From assembly GCA_041623475.1 (NCBI GenBank), contig JBFJWU010000108.1, forward strand, positions 1 to 9,634: a DNA stretch of 9,634 bases, read 5' to 3'. Below the pieces are notes generated by a model. That model made no database searches. It was not told the DNA's origin and was given only the letters and a program-made list of their open reading frames with translations. The position numbers and the translations under genes are program-made. The DNA comes from JBFJWU01 sp041623475 [NCBI: bacterium]. Lineage in GTDB: Bacteria; J088. Shown piece after piece: positions 2,734-9,051 of this stretch. Each line of letters opens with the position of its first letter. The stretch's first letter is position 1.

Positions 2734-3701
2734 GGCGCCGACACAGTTGTCACGAGATTTTCAGCAAAGTCACTGACCCAGGCCATTCCTGCGCCGGCTG
2801 CCAGGCCAATTGGTCGGTCCAGCCCACTGCGAACCAGTGTCCAGTCGTTGTCCCGAACATAGACATCGCCGCTGCCGTCCGTGGCCCAGATGCGTCCGTC
2901 CGGCCCGGCACTCAGGCCCTCGGGCCGAAAGCCTACCTCGCTGGCATCGACGATCTCGCCGCTGCCGGCATCGATACGGGCAACCAGGGCTTTGCTGTAG
3001 TCGGAAATCCAGACCTGGCCTCCGGTAACGGCCAGGCCTCGTGTGCTGTAGTTGGTACCAACCCCGAGCGGAAAGACAGGGCTGGTCTGATCCAGCTGGT
3101 CGGCACTGACATATTGCAGATTTGACCCGCCGTCAAAGCCGAGCCAGATGCGCCGATTGGCGGAATCCCAGCCTCCGGCACCCAGTCGGGTCAACGAGGT
3201 CTGCAGTGCGGCTTCCAGATCACCGGATTCGCTGAACCAGCGAATTTCCGGACGGCCGTCGAGCGGCAGCCACGCTCCGATTCGTCGCTTGCCGGCAACA
3301 ACGAGCAGGTCCGACAGGCTTTCCTCGATCAGAAACCTGACTTCAAGGGTGCCTGGATCCAGGGCGGCGATATTGCCGTAACGTCGGCCGGCAACCCAGA
3401 GGACATCGTCGGTCAGGACCAGTGAACTGAAGTTTGCTTCAAATCCCTGCCGGACCGGAATCATGGCCGGATCGCGAACCTCGGCACCCGTGGGGTCGTG
3501 GACGGTCAAAAAGCCGCCGCAGAAAGATTCGTCCTGGTCACCGTGGGCGACGACCGCGTTGCCATCCGGCAGGACGGCAATGGCAGCCGGCCGTGCGCGA
3601 TCACCGCGAGCGGGAATGTTACAGTCAGGAGTAAAATTTGCCTGGCCACACGCTGTGCAGACAGCCGCGACGGCGAAGAGGATCCGTCCGGGGGTGCTCA
3701 A
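2730..3701 (-). CDS. Beta-propeller-like predicted lipoprotein downstream of yidC
   Basis: This encodes about 323 residues from a TTG at 3701-3699, which overlaps the yidC stop codon as TTGA. The product then starts with STPGRILFAVAAVCTACGQ, a plausible lipoprotein signal with acylated Cys near residue 17. An in-frame GTG at 3734 would add 11 residues inside yidC and spoil the short n-region, so it is second choice. The mature part shows repeated strand pairs with a Trp or Tyr plus Asp pattern, such as DDVLWVAGRRYG, GGQVWISDYS, DGRIWATDGSGDVYV and GMAWVSDFAENLV, like the blades of NHL, YVTN or streptogramin-lyase-type propellers. No catalytic residues can be assigned. Such proteins often act as binding scaffolds in the periplasm or outer membrane. 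The co-operonic position with yidC and a second lipoprotein suggests an envelope role; that is inference. Confidence 0.75.
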   Translation of the reverse strand: MSTPGRILFAVAAVCTACGQANFTPDCNIPARGDRARPAAIAVLPDGNAVVAHGDQDESFCGGFLTVHDPTGAEVRDPAMIPVRQGFEANFSSLVLTDDVLWVAGRRYGNIAALDPGTLEVRFLIEESLSDLLVVAGKRRIGAWLPLDGRPEIRWFSESGDLEAALQTSLTRLGAGGWDSANRRIWLGFDGGSNLQYVSADQLDQTSPVFPLGVGTNYSTRGLAVTGGQVWISDYSKALVARIDAGSGEIVDASEVGFRPEGLSAGPDGRIWATDGSGDVYVRDNDWTLVRSGLDRPIGLAAGAGMAWVSDFAENLVTTVSAP

Positions 3702-5335
3702 GCCTCTTTGTCCATTTGCTTGTGGATCCACCACTGCTGCCCGATGGTGACGACGTTATTTGTCAGCCAGTAGAGAACGAGGCCGCTGGGAAATCCGTAG
3801 AACATAAAGGTGAACAGGATCGGCATCATCATGAAAATCTTCTGCTGTGCCGGGTCAACCGTCGTCGGCGTCATCTTCTGCTGCAGGAACATGGTTCCAC
3901 CCATGACCAGCGGCAGGATCCGAATCGGCAGGTCAAACCCCGCGACGGCGAAGACAGCAAGTGTATCTGGTGCCGCCAGGTCCGTTACCCAGAACAGAAA
4001 CGGCGCCTGCCGCAGTTCAATGCTGACCAGCAGTGCGTAATACAGGGCCAGGAAAATCGGCAACTGCAGCAACATGGGCAGGCAACCACCGAGCGGATTG
4101 ACCCCTTCGGATCTGTACAGGTTCAGCATCTCCTGGTTCAGCCGCTGCGGGTCCTTTTTGTATTTCTTCTGAAGTTCATCGATCTTGGGCTTCATCTTCT
4201 GCATACCCTGCATGGACCGATAGCTTTTGCGGGTCAGCGGATAGAGCGCGACCTTGATCATGATGGTCAGCAGGATAATTGCCCAGCCGTAGTTACCTGT
4301 AACCCCTTCGAGCACGTGCATCAGGGACAGAAGCGGGCGACCCAGGAATGCGGTCCAGCCAAAGTCAATGGAATCCTGCAGGCCCTGGCCGATGCGGCGC
4401 AACATCACCAGTTCTTTTGGGCCACCGAATATTTCGACCTGGACTCGTTCGGCATCCGCCTGAGGCTGGATGGTGACATCCATCATCCCCAGCCCGGTGT
4501 CGGCATCCGGGTCGGGGCGCTCGGTGCGGATCTGGACACGCGCAGAATGGGGGGCCAGCAGCAAGGCACGCTCAAAATATTTCTTGTCCCAGCTGATCCA
4601 TTCAAATTTGCCATCCCACTGGTACTCACGTTCCAGGTCGTCGTGGCTGATCGATTCCATTTCGCCTGCACGCCGAAAGCGCAGGCCGGTGAACACATAA
4701 AGTGACGGATCGGGCGCGAGGAACTCGCTGGCGGTCAGGACAGGCTTGTGTTTGCCAAACTGGCCACCGTCTGGCGGCAGGAATGTAAACTCGACCCGGC
4801 TGTCCGGTTTTTGCCGCAACTGGACCCGATAGGCGCCGTCGGGCTGGTTCCAGATCGCCGACACTGTTCCACCCGAAGCCCCCAGGCTTTGGATGTCGTC
4901 CGGTTCGCCCAAGCCATCAAAGCCGAACCGGACACAGGGCTGTGGGCGTTTGGCGCACAGGTCAACGTGGTCGCCGGTCCCTTCAAGGTCCAGATTGTAA
5001 TCTTGCAGGGTCCACCGCGTGATCCGATTGCCCTCGATCGTTAACGCCAGTTCCTCGCCGTTAAACGATACCGGCTGCCAGTCCCGCAGTTGGTTTTCTT
5101 CTGCCTGCGGTTGTTCGGCTGCCTGCTCTGACGCCGCGACGCGGGTCGGGTCGCTGTCATCCGGCAGGCGGTCGGCGCTGCCCACCGCGGCAGGTTCCGG
5201 GGCCAGGTCCGGCCCTGCGGGCTCTGTGGCCTGTTGCTGCGGCGGCGGTTGCTGGGGCATAAACAGTGCCTGGTATCCGAACAGGATCACCATGCTCAGG
5301 GCAAATGCCAGCAACCATCGTTGTTCTTCACGCAT
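3698..5335 (-). CDS. yidC: Membrane protein insertase YidC
   Basis: This encodes 545 residues, close to the roughly 548 of the E. coli protein. YidC inserts inner-membrane proteins alone or with SecYEG and helps fold lipoprotein and respiratory subunits. Residues 7-26 form the first membrane segment, followed by a Pro/Gln-rich linker (MPQQPPPQQQ) and an acidic low-complexity region, then the large periplasmic P1 domain to about residue 335. The conserved C-terminal insertase core follows: YPLTRKSYRSM, the charged cytoplasmic coiled coil (MKPKIDELQKKYKKDPQR), SEGVNPLGGCLP, LPIFLALYYALL, QKMTP and FPSGLVLYWLTNN. The hydrophilic-groove position that is Arg in E. coli is Lys361 here, a conservative change. 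The ATG at 5335 is chosen over an ORF opening 20 codons upstream because MREEQRWLLAF is the normal YidC N-terminus. Its start overlaps the yidD end by 8 bases (ATGCGTGA), with no clear Shine-Dalgarno, so coupling to yidD is likely. Confidence 0.97.
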   Translation of the reverse strand: MREEQRWLLAFALSMVILFGYQALFMPQQPPPQQQATEPAGPDLAPEPAAVGSADRLPDDSDPTRVAASEQAAEQPQAEENQLRDWQPVSFNGEELALTIEGNRITRWTLQDYNLDLEGTGDHVDLCAKRPQPCVRFGFDGLGEPDDIQSLGASGGTVSAIWNQPDGAYRVQLRQKPDSRVEFTFLPPDGGQFGKHKPVLTASEFLAPDPSLYVFTGLRFRRAGEMESISHDDLEREYQWDGKFEWISWDKKYFERALLLAPHSARVQIRTERPDPDADTGLGMMDVTIQPQADAERVQVEIFGGPKELVMLRRIGQGLQDSIDFGWTAFLGRPLLSLMHVLEGVTGNYGWAIILLTIMIKVALYPLTRKSYRSMQGMQKMKPKIDELQKKYKKDPQRLNQEMLNLYRSEGVNPLGGCLPMLLQLPIFLALYYALLVSIELRQAPFLFWVTDLAAPDTLAVFAVAGFDLPIRILPLVMGGTMFLQQKMTPTTVDPAQQKIFMMMPILFTFMFYGFPSGLVLYWLTNNVVTIGQQWWIHKQMDKEA

Positions 5336-5579
5336 GGGCTTGTTCGCTTTCGCAGCAACTGCGGTTATCGGGAACGGGGTCCCAGCCAGTGCCACCCAAT
5401 GGATGGCAGCGGGCGATTCGTCGTAGCGCCAGCCACGTGCCGCGCCAGGGGCCCCAGGTCTGGATCGCCTGTTCCGCGTACTGGGAGCAGGTTGGCGTAA
5501 ACCGGCAGCGGGGTGGCAACGCCGGGCTGATTACCGCACGGTAGATCCGGATCAAGGTCAGCAGCAGCGAACGCATCAT
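5328..5579 (-). CDS. yidD: Membrane protein insertion efficiency factor YidD
   Basis: This encodes 83 residues, the usual size for the family. YidD is a small membrane-associated protein with an N-terminal amphipathic helix (MRSLLLTLIRIYRAVISP) that is thought to assist YidC-dependent insertion. The diagnostic cysteine motif is present as CRFTPTCSQYA (family form CRxxPSCSxYA), followed by AIQTWGPWRGTWLALRRIARC and HPLGGTGWDPVP, which match the family's GxxxGxxLxxxRxxRCxP..GGxDPVP pattern. The start overlaps the rnpA stop as ATGA, and two tandem ATG codons (5579 and 5576) are possible starts. GGAGAA ends 8 bases before the first ATG and is a good ribosome binding site. It sits, as in most bacteria, between rnpA and yidC. 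Confidence 0.95.
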   Translation of the reverse strand: MMRSLLLTLIRIYRAVISPALPPRCRFTPTCSQYAEQAIQTWGPWRGTWLALRRIARCHPLGGTGWDPVPDNRSCCESEQAHA

Positions 5580-5893
5580 ACCTGCACTTCTCCAAGCTCC
5601 GTCATGAAACTGTCCAGGTCACGTTCGACGGCCGCGAAACTGTCGGGCAGGCAATCAAACCGGGGGCTGACCAACAAATCGATTGCGGGCAGGCGATCCA
5701 GTCGCAGCCGAAACGCCTCGCGGATCCAGCGGCGAATCCGGTTGCGCGTCGGCGCATTGCCGACCTGCCTGGGTACGGCCATGCCCAGGCGAGCGACCCC
5801 GGCTGGACTGTTGGCAACCTTAATGCGCAATGAAGAATAGATGTGCATCCGACCTACTTTGCGTACACGGATAAAATCGGCACGCGACCGCAG
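5576..5893 (-). CDS. rnpA: Ribonuclease P protein component, probably from a non-canonical start
   Basis: RnpA is the protein cofactor of RNase P, which removes 5' leaders from pre-tRNAs. The core is clear: ARLGMAVPRQVGNAPTRNRI followed by RRWIREAFR contains the RNR motif and the left-handed-crossover helix of the family. The only standard start in frame is ATG at 5848, giving 90 residues that lack the N-terminal helix. Upstream, the same frame stays open and encodes LRSRADFIRVRKVGR, just what family N-termini look like, but no ATG, GTG or TTG occurs before the frame's upstream stop at 6074-6076. I place the start at CTG 5893-5891 because it precedes RSRADF and an AGGA (plus-strand 5903-5906) lies 9 bases upstream; this gives 105 residues. 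ATC at 5938, overlapping the rpmH end, would give 120, closest to the usual 119. Gene identity is firm; the start is inference. The stop overlaps yidD as ATGA. Confidence 0.9.
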   Translation of the reverse strand: MRSRADFIRVRKVGRMHIYSSLRIKVANSPAGVARLGMAVPRQVGNAPTRNRIRRWIREAFRLRLDRLPAIDLLVSPRFDCLPDSFAAVERDLDSFMTELGEVQV

Positions 5894-5902
5894 CGAGGCG
5901 GA

Positions 5903-5906
5903 TCCT
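5903..5906 (-). promoter_or_regulatory. Possible Shine-Dalgarno for a CTG start of rnpA
   Basis: The minus strand reads AGGA here, 9 bases upstream of the in-frame CTG at 5893-5891. It is short and could be chance. The competing canonical ATG at 5848 also has an AGG 4 bases upstream, so a shorter RnpA may be made as well or instead. Confidence 0.35.
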
Positions 5907-5927
5907 GGAAGCGTGTGCCTGTTCGGC

Positions 5928-6077
5928 TTACTTGCGATACGCGGTGGGCGCCAGCAGCGAACGGCCCTTGCGGCGCCGGGCTGAGAGAATGCGTTTGCCG
6001 GCGCTGGTCGCGTTGCGTTTGCGAAAACCGTGTTTACGCAGGCGTTTGCGATTGTGTGGTTGGAACGTGCGTTTCAT
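5928..6077 (-). CDS. rpmH: 50S ribosomal protein L34
   Basis: This encodes a 49-residue, extremely basic ribosomal protein that binds 23S rRNA in the large subunit. The N-terminus [20 protein letters not shown] is the family signature (MKRTFQPSxxKRxRxHGFR), followed by [20 protein letters not shown], matching the usual GRxVLxxRRxKGR segment. The C-terminal extension LLAPTAYRK makes it a few residues longer than the common 44-47. The ATG at 6077-6075 has GGAG 10 bases upstream. It is the first gene of a minus-strand operon with rnpA, yidD, yidC and two lipoproteins, and its last codons overlap the open frame of rnpA, which runs through rpmH in the +1 phase without any standard start codon. Confidence 0.96.
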
Positions 6078-6351: not shown

Positions 6352-7605
6352 ATGTTGAAGATGGAACACCCTTCCATTACTGACCCGGCGTTTCTTGTCC
6401 TTGATCGGGAACGTCAAAACGAAATACTGTCGGACCTGGTCCGCAACAAAGAGATCCTGGACGTGCTGTGCACGTCGTTGCAGGCCTTTCCCTGGAATCC
6501 GGAAGAACCGCGATACCAGGACCTGTGGCTGGGGTTGAGCGCGCTGGTCCTGTTTGAAAACCGGATCGACAGCAAATTGTTGCTGCCGCACCTGCGGGTC
6601 TTTCTGACCCAGATCGACCGTTATCGCAGCGACGTACCGGAACCGGACGCCGACGATATCGAACCGGTCGAGGATGTCTGGGGCGGTCTGGGGTTGGATG
6701 ACGTCACACCTGATACCGTCGGCAAATACTTTCCCGACTTGTACGAACAGATCATCCTCCAGGCGGGCCCTCGTGACTGGGAGCGAGCCATCGGGTTTGT
6801 CCAGGCGGTCGGCCGGATGAGCAAACTTCTGAATTCGGAATGGCAATACAAGCTGGCCAGCATTGCTGCCTCAATTGTCCTCAGCAGCCGACCCAATCGG
6901 AAGGCGATGGACATGTGGCGGGATATCTGGAACCGGACCAGTTACCACGCGTCAGATTTGTTCTATCACGACAGCCGGCTGCGCCGGGCCTTGCTGGACG
7001 AGAATGTTGATCATGCCTATCGCCTGATGACGGTACTGGCCAAGGCGGGGCACAAATCGTCGGACCTGGTTGCGGGCGTGATTCGCGCGGGGTACGACGT
7101 GGACTTTCAGGACGAGCGAGCGTCGCTGGGCCTGTTTGTCGGTGCCAGCGGATTACTGGAAGCGTCGCCGCTGATCTCGCCGGATCTGTTTCGCCTGGGT
7201 GTGGCCAAGTTGATCTGGGATTTTTCCCACGAAAACAAGCGGACGCACGAACGTATCTTCTATGACGAAATCAGCCTGATCAAGAGCCGCGAGATCCTGA
7301 TTGACTTTCGCAAAGCGCTGCTGCGCAGTGACTTTATCCAGTCGTGGGGTTTTGCCGAGTACGCGTTTGTGCACGGGTTTGAACCACTGGAACTGTTCGA
7401 CGAGTTGTCACGGTTGAGCCCCAGTTTCTATGAAGGTGGCGAAGGCCTGATGTGGGCGTGGAAACACCTGGCCGCGGTCGAATCCCTGCTGAAGCTGCTG
7501 CCCGAAGATTTTGGCATTTACGTCATGGCGCATACGGTGCGCCTGCTGGCGCGGACGCCCAAGGACGCGGAACTGCTGGATCCATTCCCGGACGAGGAAC
7601 AGTAG
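6352..7605 (+). CDS. Hypothetical protein, soluble and helical, in the position usual for dnaA
   Basis: This encodes 417 residues that I do not assign to any family. There is no signal peptide and no transmembrane segment, so it is probably cytoplasmic. The sequence is rich in Leu, Asp, Glu and Arg with helix-like spacing throughout (for example LLLPHLRVFLTQIDRYRSD and REILIDFRKALLRSDFIQSW). An acidic linker lies near residues 82-103 (VPEPDADDIEPVEDVWGGL), and the tail is acidic (DPFPDEEQ). Tryptophans are common. No nucleotide-binding, metal-binding or DNA-binding motif is evident, and the pattern suggests a helical-repeat or scaffold fold. The start is uncertain: ATG 6352 has no good Shine-Dalgarno, and ATG 6361 follows the weak GAAG. 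Codon use resembles its neighbours, so recent transfer is not indicated. It ends 2 bases before the structured element at 7608. Confidence 0.8.
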   Translation: MLKMEHPSITDPAFLVLDRERQNEILSDLVRNKEILDVLCTSLQAFPWNPEEPRYQDLWLGLSALVLFENRIDSKLLLPHLRVFLTQIDRYRSDVPEPDADDIEPVEDVWGGLGLDDVTPDTVGKYFPDLYEQIILQAGPRDWERAIGFVQAVGRMSKLLNSEWQYKLASIAASIVLSSRPNRKAMDMWRDIWNRTSYHASDLFYHDSRLRRALLDENVDHAYRLMTVLAKAGHKSSDLVAGVIRAGYDVDFQDERASLGLFVGASGLLEASPLISPDLFRLGVAKLIWDFSHENKRTHERIFYDEISLIKSREILIDFRKALLRSDFIQSWGFAEYAFVHGFEPLELFDELSRLSPSFYEGGEGLMWAWKHLAAVESLLKLLPEDFGIYVMAHTVRLLARTPKDAELLDPFPDEEQ

Positions 7606-7607
7606 AA

Positions 7608-7629
7608 GGCACCCCACCCGGGTGGAAAC
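7608..7629 (+). repeat. Left terminal inverted repeat of the structured element
   Basis: This 22-base arm begins GGCACCCC and ends GTGGAAAC. It pairs with 7859-7880 at 21 of 22 positions; the exception is A7616 opposite C7872. It contains a perfect 12-base palindrome, CCACCCGGGTGG (7614-7625). The TAG stop of the upstream gene is 2 bases away. Confidence 0.85.
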
Positions 7630-7638
7630 AGCTGCGCT

Positions 7639-7740
7639 GTTGCGGACGTGATGTCCATAAGTACCCGGTCAGCGGCAATGTGCAATCGGTCAAATGTTAA
7701 TAGGCTTATGACCCATATACGAGGAACATCACGCCGCAAC
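7639..7740. repeat. Left internal hairpin of the structured element
   Basis: Arms 7639-7656 (GTTGCGGACGTGATGTCC) and 7723-7740 (GGAACATCACGCCGCAAC) form 17 Watson-Crick pairs with one single-base bulge on each side. A further 5-base pairing (GGTCA 7667-7671 with TGACC 7709-7713) lies inside, leaving an apical loop of about 37 bases. The right base of this stem overlaps an alternative small hairpin, CCGCA-ACCC-TGCGG, so a conformational switch is possible. Confidence 0.75.
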
Positions 7741-7747
7741 CCTGCGG

Positions 7748-7849
7748 GCAACGTCTGGTTTCCCGTCTGGGCACGCCAATCCCTCCTCGCCATAGCTACG
7801 GCTATGACTCGTCATGCTTGACGCACCAGATCGGAAAACCGACCGCTGC
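7748..7849. repeat. Right internal hairpin of the structured element
   Basis: Two 49-base arms pair imperfectly around a 4-base loop. The tip is a perfect 6-base stem CATAGC/GCTATG (7791-7796 with 7801-7806) closing TACG, a UNCG-type tetraloop if read as plus-strand RNA. The outer half pairs well (GGTTT with AAACC, TCTGG with CCAGA), while 7780-7788 is poorly paired. Most mismatches are A opposite C on the plus strand. Confidence 0.7.
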
Positions 7850-7858
7850 ATCGCACCC

Positions 7859-7880
7859 GTTTCCACCCGGGCGGGGTGCC
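7859..7880 (-). repeat. Right terminal inverted repeat of the structured element
   Basis: This 22-base arm is the reverse complement of 7608-7629 with one difference. It contains an alternative in-frame GTG (7876) for dgt and lies 28 bases before the preferred dgt ATG, so the element borders or forms the dgt leader. Confidence 0.85.
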
Positions 7881-7908
7881 AGCGGCATACCTCGCGGCTG
7901 GCAGGGCA

Positions 7909-9051
7909 ATGACTGAACCTGTCAATTCTGAATCTGGTAGCTGGCCGGATTACGCGTGTCCACCGGACCGGTCGCAGGGCCGGGTACATCCGGAACCAAC
8001 CCACGTCTATCGCAATCCATACCAGCGGGACCGGGACCGGATCCTTCACTGTGCGGCATTCCGGCGGTTGGAAAGCAAGACCCAGGTTTTTGCCTATCAC
8101 GAAAGTGATTATGTCCGGACGCGGTTGACCCACACACTGGAGGTTGCCCAGATTTCCCGTTCGATCGCCCGGGCGCTGGGGTTGTACGAGGACCTGTCCG
8201 AGGCGATTGCACTGAGCCACGACATCGGCCATCCGCCATTTGGGCATGCCGGCGAGCGGGCGCTGGACAAAAAGGCGGAATCAGCCGGCGGTTTCAACCA
8301 CAATATCCAGGGTCTTCGGATCGTGGATTATCTGGAGCAACGTTACGGTGATTTTCCGGGGCTCAACCTGAGTTTTGAGGTCCGCGAGGCATTTGCCAAA
8401 CACGGCAGCGGTCGCGACGCGATGCCGGACGAGTTTGCTGCTACGGGGCCGCAGCCGACTCTGGAAGCGCAGATCGTTGATCTGGTCGACGAATTGACCT
8501 ATACCAGTCACGATATCGATGATGGTATTACCCATCGGCGACTGAAGTTTCGTGACCTGGAGGGGCTGGAGCTCTGGGACCGTCCGTACAACGAGGTCCG
8601 TAAACGATTTCCCGACGCGGGCAAAAGCATCTGGCGGCACGAAACCGTGCGGCGGATTGTCAATTACCTGGTGACCGACCTGCTGGAGACCACTCGCCAG
8701 CGCATCGATGACACACCCGGCCTGGACCTGGACCAGGTGCGCGATCAGCGCCAGCCGGTTGCGTCGTTCAGCGATGATTGCCAGGCGTTGCTGGATCCCG
8801 TAAAAGCATTCCTGATCGAAAACCTGTACCGGGACTACCGTGTCGTCCAGATGAACGAGAAAGCCAATCGTGTGGTTTCGACCCTGTACGACATTTTTGT
8901 CAGCGAGCCGTCGCAGCTGCCGCCACGATTTCTGGAGCGGGCCGACAAATGGGGCGTTGAGCGGTCCGTCGTTGACTACATCGGTGGAATGACCGACAAG
9001 TTTGCGCTGGAATCATACGCGCGCCTCATTGGGGCGGATTCACTTTTCTAA
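7909..9051 (+). CDS. dgt: Deoxyguanosinetriphosphate triphosphohydrolase-like protein (HD superfamily)
   Basis: This encodes 380 residues, in the range of the type 2 dGTPase-like family, which hydrolyses dNTPs (often dGTP) to the deoxynucleoside and tripolyphosphate and so shapes dNTP pools in the cytosol. The N-terminal signature is HVYRNPYQRDRDRILHCAAF, continuing into RRLESKTQVF. Metal-binding HD-domain residues are visible: His75 in RTRLTHTLEVAQ, His104-Asp105 in SHDIGHPPFGHAGE, and an Asp in DELTYTSHDIDDG near residue 202. ATG 7909 is preferred because the product then starts just before the family region and AGGG lies 2 bases upstream, though that spacing is short; GTG 7876 inside the element's right repeat would add 11 residues. 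No clear promoter was found between the upstream gene and dgt. The 3' end overlaps the convergent LysR gene by 12 bases. The true nucleotide preference is not known. Confidence 0.92.
   Translation: MTEPVNSESGSWPDYACPPDRSQGRVHPEPTHVYRNPYQRDRDRILHCAAFRRLESKTQVFAYHESDYVRTRLTHTLEVAQISRSIARALGLYEDLSEAIALSHDIGHPPFGHAGERALDKKAESAGGFNHNIQGLRIVDYLEQRYGDFPGLNLSFEVREAFAKHGSGRDAMPDEFAATGPQPTLEAQIVDLVDELTYTSHDIDDGITHRRLKFRDLEGLELWDRPYNEVRKRFPDAGKSIWRHETVRRIVNYLVTDLLETTRQRIDDTPGLDLDQVRDQRQPVASFSDDCQALLDPVKAFLIENLYRDYRVVQMNEKANRVVSTLYDIFVSEPSQLPPRFLERADKWGVERSVVDYIGGMTDKFALESYARLIGADSLF

Follow-up and report, generated by a model that had tools for sequence, protein, structure and literature searches.

A probable MITE-like element with two hairpins and a structured core that recurs in other bacterial genomes

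Prokaryotic MITEs were reviewed in 2024 (PMC10969869), and several of the families described before that review invite comparison with the locus studied here. In PMC2229807, bacterial MITEs with long stem-loops are described and the RUP element of pneumococcus is tied to IS630-Spn1 and to TA targets. The R0 and R2 repeats of Pseudomonas fluorescens are presented as MITE-like in PMC2718517, where inverted repeats are reported to flank insertion sequences as well. The element analysed in this study lies at positions 7608 to 7880 of the window, by which we mean the whole stretch of 9,634 nucleotides that was analysed. Like RUP and the R0/R2 MITEs it is short, intergenic and bounded by terminal inverted repeats. 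Unlike RUP, its ends are without TA and without a known transposase. Some of the repeat families of P. fluorescens may belong to the superfamily that shares the core described below, a likeness drawn here by description only.

The CIR repeat is described in PMC2229807 as two long hairpin arms joined by a linker, with no terminal inverted repeats and with a GANTC site at a loop. Our element shares the two long hairpin arms and the linker. It differs from CIR in that a terminal stem encloses both hairpins and in that the conserved part is a GACGAG...GAGGAG tip. The QMITE1 and QMITE2 repeats of Coxiella burnetii are MITE-like and fold strongly, QMITE2 is found mainly in 3' untranslated and intergenic sequence, and no orthologues of QMITE1 were found in other genomes by that study (PMC5896051). 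The portions of PMC2229807, PMC2718517, PMC5896051 and PMC10969869 on which we draw do not mention any core that is common to repeat families from different bacteria. QMITE1, QMITE2 and our element are alike in being MITE-like and strongly folding, a comparison of descriptions and not of sequences. The REP, BIME and REPIN repeats, which are linked to RAYT transposases, share with the family of our element that they are dispersed hairpins, partly in inverted pairs. REPs are much shorter and are not known to have terminal inverted repeats, and it is in its greater length and its terminal inverted repeats that the element differs from them.

Fold and genomic setting of the element

The features of the element and of its two neighbours are as follows.

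6352 to 7605, plus strand: flanking open reading frame of 417 amino acids, no Pfam match, stops 2 bases before the element
7608 to 7880, minus strand: whole element of the two-hairpin type; best-folding strand, matched by covariance model R3
7608 to 7636, no strand assigned: left arm of the closing stem (terminal inverted repeat), pairs with 7852 to 7880; its first 24 bases pair uninterrupted
7639 to 7740, minus strand: second hairpin, predicted fold (17-pair stem, 7639-7656 with 7724-7740)
7740 to 7748, minus strand: mini-hairpin linker reading CCC-GCA-GGG, predicted fold (2 pairs, 7741-7742 with 7746-7747)
7748 to 7849, minus strand: first hairpin, with the conserved core at its tip, from the fold and the core models
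7768 to 7828, minus strand: core as aligned to covariance model R1 (models R2 and R3 match 7772-7824)
7783 to 7813, minus strand: 31-base tip, an 8-pair stem under a purine-rich internal loop; the segment that recurs in blastn matches to other genomes
7852 to 7880, no strand assigned: right arm of the closing stem (terminal inverted repeat), pairs with 7608 to 7636; terminal match of 21 of 22
7909 to 9051, plus strand: flanking gene for an HD-domain phosphohydrolase, dGTPase-like (Pfam HD and HD_assoc)

The element is 273 bases long and has the MITE features of small size, lack of coding capacity and terminal inverted repeats. Three open reading frames of at least 60 amino acids overlap much of it (7452-7700 on the plus strand, 7518-7793 and 7729-8247 on the minus strand); they have no Pfam match and extend into the neighbouring genes. 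The ends are complementary at 21 of 22 bases and at 26 of 30 when longer ends are taken, and an inverted-repeat search gave 41-base arms of 83%. On the minus strand the predicted closing stem has 24 contiguous pairs, 2 of them G-U, followed by 4 more, which makes 28 pairs between 7608-7636 and 7852-7880. It encloses a hairpin with a predicted 17-pair stem and another with 30 predicted pairs in imperfect arms and a 10-pair tip. When compared with dinucleotide shuffles, the element folds better on the minus strand (-157.2 kcal/mol against a shuffled mean of -104.6, z -10.0) than on the plus strand (-130.2 kcal/mol against -93.4, z -8.03), and on either strand none of 200 shuffles folded as well.

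These results agree with the original prediction, which had claimed from the letters alone that the ends pair over 21 of 22 bases, that the interior splits into a 17-pair hairpin and one with long imperfect arms, and that this is more pairing than a normal spacer holds. To its layout we add the mini-hairpin at 7741-7747 that joins the two hairpins and was absent from that first reading. The prediction had also recognised no known RNA family, and a scan with Rfam 15 likewise gave no matches at the gathering score; the five sub-threshold matches to the window stretch had E-values of 2.8 to 7.7. A hammerhead-like reading of the GACGAG...GAGGAG tip loop was dropped as the loop reads as a continuous helix. 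An integron attC site was also considered as the identity of the element. Consensus scans of the element on either strand found no promoter- or terminator-like site and no terminator with a T-run. The flanks of 7608 and 7880 show no TA, no matching flank and no visible target duplication.

The upstream open reading frame stops at 7605 and the HD-domain gene has its first ATG at 7909; of the 303-base spacer between them the element occupies about nine tenths, so the claim that it fills almost the whole gap holds as well. Both flanking genes run on the plus strand and the better-folding strand of the element is antisense to both, and it is therefore probably not simply their mRNA leader or trailer. 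The HD-domain gene is dGTPase-like; the relatives of its protein come from mixed phyla at 39-47% identity among the best 80 matches, and nearer ones may exist. No relative of the 417-amino-acid protein was found in viral contigs or in 48 genomes of the class of G171, the latter a result of little weight. The window also holds yidC and rnpA, assigned by Pfam, at 3698-6077 on the minus strand, and 5928-6077 on that strand is presumably the gene for ribosomal protein L34, judging by its sequence. The closest match to YidC in the sampled genomes is 45% over part of its length (G171, E 1.6e-84), and this distance from all sampled genomes suggests that the host lineage may be deep.

A core shared with elements of other genomes

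With the element as blastn query, 10 of 398 genomes sampled from the phylum that includes G003 gave matches at E 0.01. Two of these, G521 and G295, have at least two matches each, all to the same 31 bases at the tip (7783-7813). The remaining eight genomes gave one match each to other short parts of the element; four of those eight loci (L090, L091, L093, L098) were read and judged to be chance. Among the matches listed for a second draw of 339 genomes at E 0.001, five of five lie in the tip segment (G821, G521 twice, G677 and G649). A pattern for the tip has 31 occurrences in G521 and 3 in G295, compared with none for a reversed control pattern. A second copy with the window's arms was not found by blastn in the 398 and 339 sampled genomes, in phages or in plasmids, and no empty site came to light for any copy.

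The elements in G521 are 161-192 bases long, with long complementary arms and the tip at the centre. For the analysis of their ends we used 27 loci; a stricter pattern detected no core in one of them, and among the 26 left there was one without a recognisable right end. TA is present at both ends in 23 of the 26 examined elements, and the 60-base flanks are unrelated with the exception of six flank pairs. At locus L130, a full-length element of 1.2 kb is bracketed by the terminal repeat of this subfamily and encodes a 365-amino-acid protein that is an IS630-family transposase (NF033545, 284.9 bits against a cut-off of 100; Pfam DDE_3). The shared ends together with this transposase make the G521 subfamily a MITE family with a likely parent, and it fits the insertion-sequence-linked MITEs, as in the case of RUP and IS630-Spn1, directly. 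At three loci of this genome (L089, L118 and L127) a second, different repeat adjoins the elements, with a shared sequence that reads TTTGTCTGAAAAGT... in L089. A related tip is present in G677 at L201, in elements with ends GCCCGGATATTGCACCAAGG that lie as two copies side by side and are without the outer core.

We built a covariance model of the core, R1, from 12 sequences with the window included, a wider model R2 with 56 rows, and a model R3 with 54 rows from which the window was left out. Of 369 genomes drawn from the class of G521, 40 have R1 matches at E 0.001 in a scan that scored at most 14 candidates per genome. R2 has matches in 36 of the 289 genomes drawn from the phylum of G003, with G247, G267 and G319 counted in both draws. 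It also has matches in 4 of 71 genomes of the class of G001, which are weak (best E 5.7e-5); two of these four genomes carry 5 and 9 matches. This class includes G006, labelled Terriglobia, the genome behind locus L010. The core is thus recognisable in about one in ten of the genomes sampled in the two large draws, often in several copies each. We took 60 stretches around matches and rescored 64 sources; one 100-base stretch of G652 without the match (L187) was dropped, and the close or truncated copies L141, L144, L146, L151, L174, L189, L192, L193 and L195 were left out of A3 and A4. As a negative control, R3 at E 0.1 found nothing in 40 loci of dGTPase-like relatives (520 kb). An Rfam scan of 20 relative loci gave a single match, a bacterial SRP RNA that adjoins the element of L178. 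With no Rfam match to the core in the loci tested and no account of it met in the literature searched, the core represents a sizeable amount of unannotated intergenic sequence.

Plasmid and phage collections were searched with the window's element and with several of its relatives. The element itself gave nothing in plasmids and phages by blastn at E 0.01, and the hairpin alone gave two Mesorhizobium plasmid records at E 3 in a search at E 10, which we took as chance. Four scans of viral contigs for exact matches to parts of the element yielded 1, 0, 1 and 0 hits, and the loci concerned (L084, L099) are also attributed to chance because the likeness stops at the pattern. The element of L105 gave five weak matches in plasmids, one of them in Mitsuaria, and one phage record that comes from faecal samples and is labelled unverified. 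No match in plasmids was found for the elements of L148, L206 and L232. The search with the L198 element returned one short match and that with the L169 element six records, four of which were fetched. Named carriers identified via plasmid records are Comamonas odontotermitis, two Cupriavidus and one Mitsuaria. The Comamonas record (NZ_CP083452.1), of which about 254 kb of about 373 kb were covered, is a 372-kb sequence labelled plasmid that carries genes for ribosomal proteins and rpoA. It also holds shortened copies that retain the terminal stem region only, near 21490-21564 (L242) and near 21440-21496 (L244), which look as if the hairpins had been deleted.

The window was scored with R3 at 31.1 bits (E 1e-5 in 9.6 kb), with the next best place in the window at 10.2 bits, a test that is not fully independent because R1, the model used to collect and align the R3 rows, had included the window. 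The outer core reads AAGGCGC...GCAACGCC in most of the 56 aligned rows, and the window differs there. The linker motif CCGNAGG, which was noticed before it was counted, follows the core at a distance of 18-20 bases in 13 of 95 elements, from 10 genomes and the window (at 20 bases in the latter). Elsewhere in the 90 bases downstream it occurs in 2 further elements and anywhere in the 90 bases upstream in 1 of 95; its reverse complement is seen downstream in 7 and upstream in 2 of the 95. The predicted folds of L170, L178, L180 and L198 have a closing stem, the core hairpin, a paired linker and a second hairpin in the same order as in the window. Those of L169, L181 and L183 are predicted to have two hairpins inside a closing stem without the paired linker. 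The window element is best taken as a divergent member of this two-hairpin subtype. A second, inverted match to the core lies about 105 bases off in L178 (18.9 bits, weak), L212 (27.9 bits) and L225 (34.2 bits), an arrangement that resembles an inverted pair.

Among the identities that the original prediction had offered, the dispersed structured repeat gained ground, as the tip and the mini-hairpin are common to elements that are multi-copy in other genomes. A single conserved ncRNA in constant gene order lost it, since the relatives we examined adjoin different genes. The suggestion of a MITE-like element is likewise supported: terminal repeats are present and one subfamily has IS630 ends and TA. 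The window's own copy has no visible TA ends or target duplication.

Selection on folding, terminal repeats and possible origins

The original prediction had asked whether the arms stay complementary in homologues, and the core stems do so with covariation. In the alignment of 56 core rows, which was fitted to the tested structure and so favours the pairing result, 87.4% of cells pair, compared with at most 50.3% in slid versions. Changes on both sides are seen in 13 of 17 core pairs (121 cells), and none of 500 shuffles reaches any of five measures. One core pair, enclosed by two tandem G-A steps, reads C-G in 32 sequences and is reversed to G-C in another 14.

We investigated which strand is kept for folding by counting single mismatches in the arms on the core strand, with folds restricted to Watson-Crick pairs and the core itself excluded. 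A first set of 64 elements has 90 G-T against 33 A-C mismatches; 25 genomes favour the core strand, 7 go the other way and 9 are tied. The second set, of 43 elements, has 95 G-T against 19 A-C, and here 15 genomes are in favour, 5 opposed and 10 tied; G335 alone contributes 60 of these 95 G-T and 6 of the 19 A-C. Sign tests over genomes gave p 0.002 for the first set and 0.04 for the second. In the window element itself, three of the 1x1 mismatches are G-T and three are G-G, while A-C does not occur. The genomes with two-hairpin elements have 2 G-T against 8 A-C in the first set (G247, G574, G677, G649) and 11 G-T against 1 A-C in the second (G301, G257, G303, G384, G358, G309, G043). These counts indicate that, across the family as a whole, foldability is better preserved on one strand (in the window the minus strand), with the two-hairpin subtype mixed. 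The strand test fits RNA and single-stranded DNA alike and cannot tell the two apart. The bias predicts a role for one strand in folded, single-stranded form, and this prediction is open to experiment. According to crude calls of the neighbouring open reading frames, in a count that leaves out L128, 83 of 90 elements have both neighbours (32 --, 19 ++, 17 +- and 15 -+), and there is no preference for the folding strand being sense.

The core is found between different ends. For G335 alone, where 13 of 17 loci gave the core by the pattern used, it lies in elements with at least four end types: TAGTGTCGTGTCTC; TAGTGGACTGTAA(C/T)AG; TAGTGTAGTGTTTCG; and another repeat in the two-hairpin L258. Further end types occur in other genomes. 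A transposase was identified for the G521 ends only. The ends of the window element (GGCACCCC...) match no transposon end seen in this analysis, and no autonomous element with these ends was found by exact pattern scans of viral contigs or by blastn in sampled genomes, plasmids and phages. For the two-hairpin subfamily of the L169 type the search for a parent transposase found none; IS481 was considered, as an IS481 gene adjoins one fragment, and was rejected, as no matching repeat was found near the other end of that gene. The presence of the same core between different terminal repeats offers a natural system for asking what, besides recognition by a transposase, keeps the interiors of such elements alive.

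We consider it likely that the window element is a divergent copy, or the remains, of a non-autonomous, MITE-like dispersed element with two hairpins, and that what it carries inside is a passenger module under selection to fold on one strand. Mobility in trans by a transposase is indirectly shown for one subfamily, and we infer it for the window element. Such elements would be moved by transposases that recognise their terminal repeats, with different transposases presumably serving different subfamilies. The interior would fold single-stranded, either as RNA or as DNA during replication or transposition, and this folding may make insertions tolerable or may protect the element. A more far-reaching view of the core is possible, and we hold it tentatively: it could be a widespread and independently selected single-strand folding module, either an RNA or a binding site in single-stranded DNA, that several unrelated mobile repeat families have taken up. 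This is suggested by the fact that ends vary between families and within G335, while the core and mostly the foldability of one strand are kept across a phylum and beyond. If true, the core would be an undescribed and very widespread functional nucleic-acid element and not transposon filler.

Other origins have to be weighed against the MITE-like reading. The preference for one strand over the family would also be expected if the element were moved as single-stranded DNA by an HUH or tyrosine transposase in the style of REP/REPIN or IS200/IS605, with the hairpins as the recognised sites. The inverted second core of three two-hairpin loci (weak in L178) points the same way, as does the CCC-GNA-GGG linker, which resembles DNA mini-hairpins known to be very stable. 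The IS630 ends and TA termini of the G521 subfamily, however, fit cut-and-paste transposition of double-stranded DNA, and our elements have long terminal inverted repeats, which IS200/IS605 elements are not known to have; this makes this route unlikely. We find it quite unlikely that the element is a domesticated cis-acting RNA or small RNA controlling the HD-domain gene or the upstream open reading frame, with its likeness to repeats a matter of ancestry only. In favour of such a role, the element leaves hardly any of the spacer between the two co-directional genes uncovered, and each of its strands folds strongly. Against it, the better strand is antisense to both genes, neither strand has a promoter- or terminator-like site by consensus scan, the relatives examined adjoin unrelated genes and Rfam gives no match.

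Very stable hairpins in an intergenic spacer might also be explained by a simple bidirectional terminator or an insulating hairpin between genes that has never been mobile. This is very improbable, given that the consensus scans found no T-run terminator, the co-directional flanking genes and the sequence homology with dispersed multi-copy elements. The reading as a MITE-like element with a folding interior remains the one we prefer.

A last observation comes from G335, where L261 and L263 differ in their ends and share one short insertion (GATGGCCGCCCCGCG) at an identical position in the core. This could reflect an exchange between families or, alternatively, a small mobile insert.
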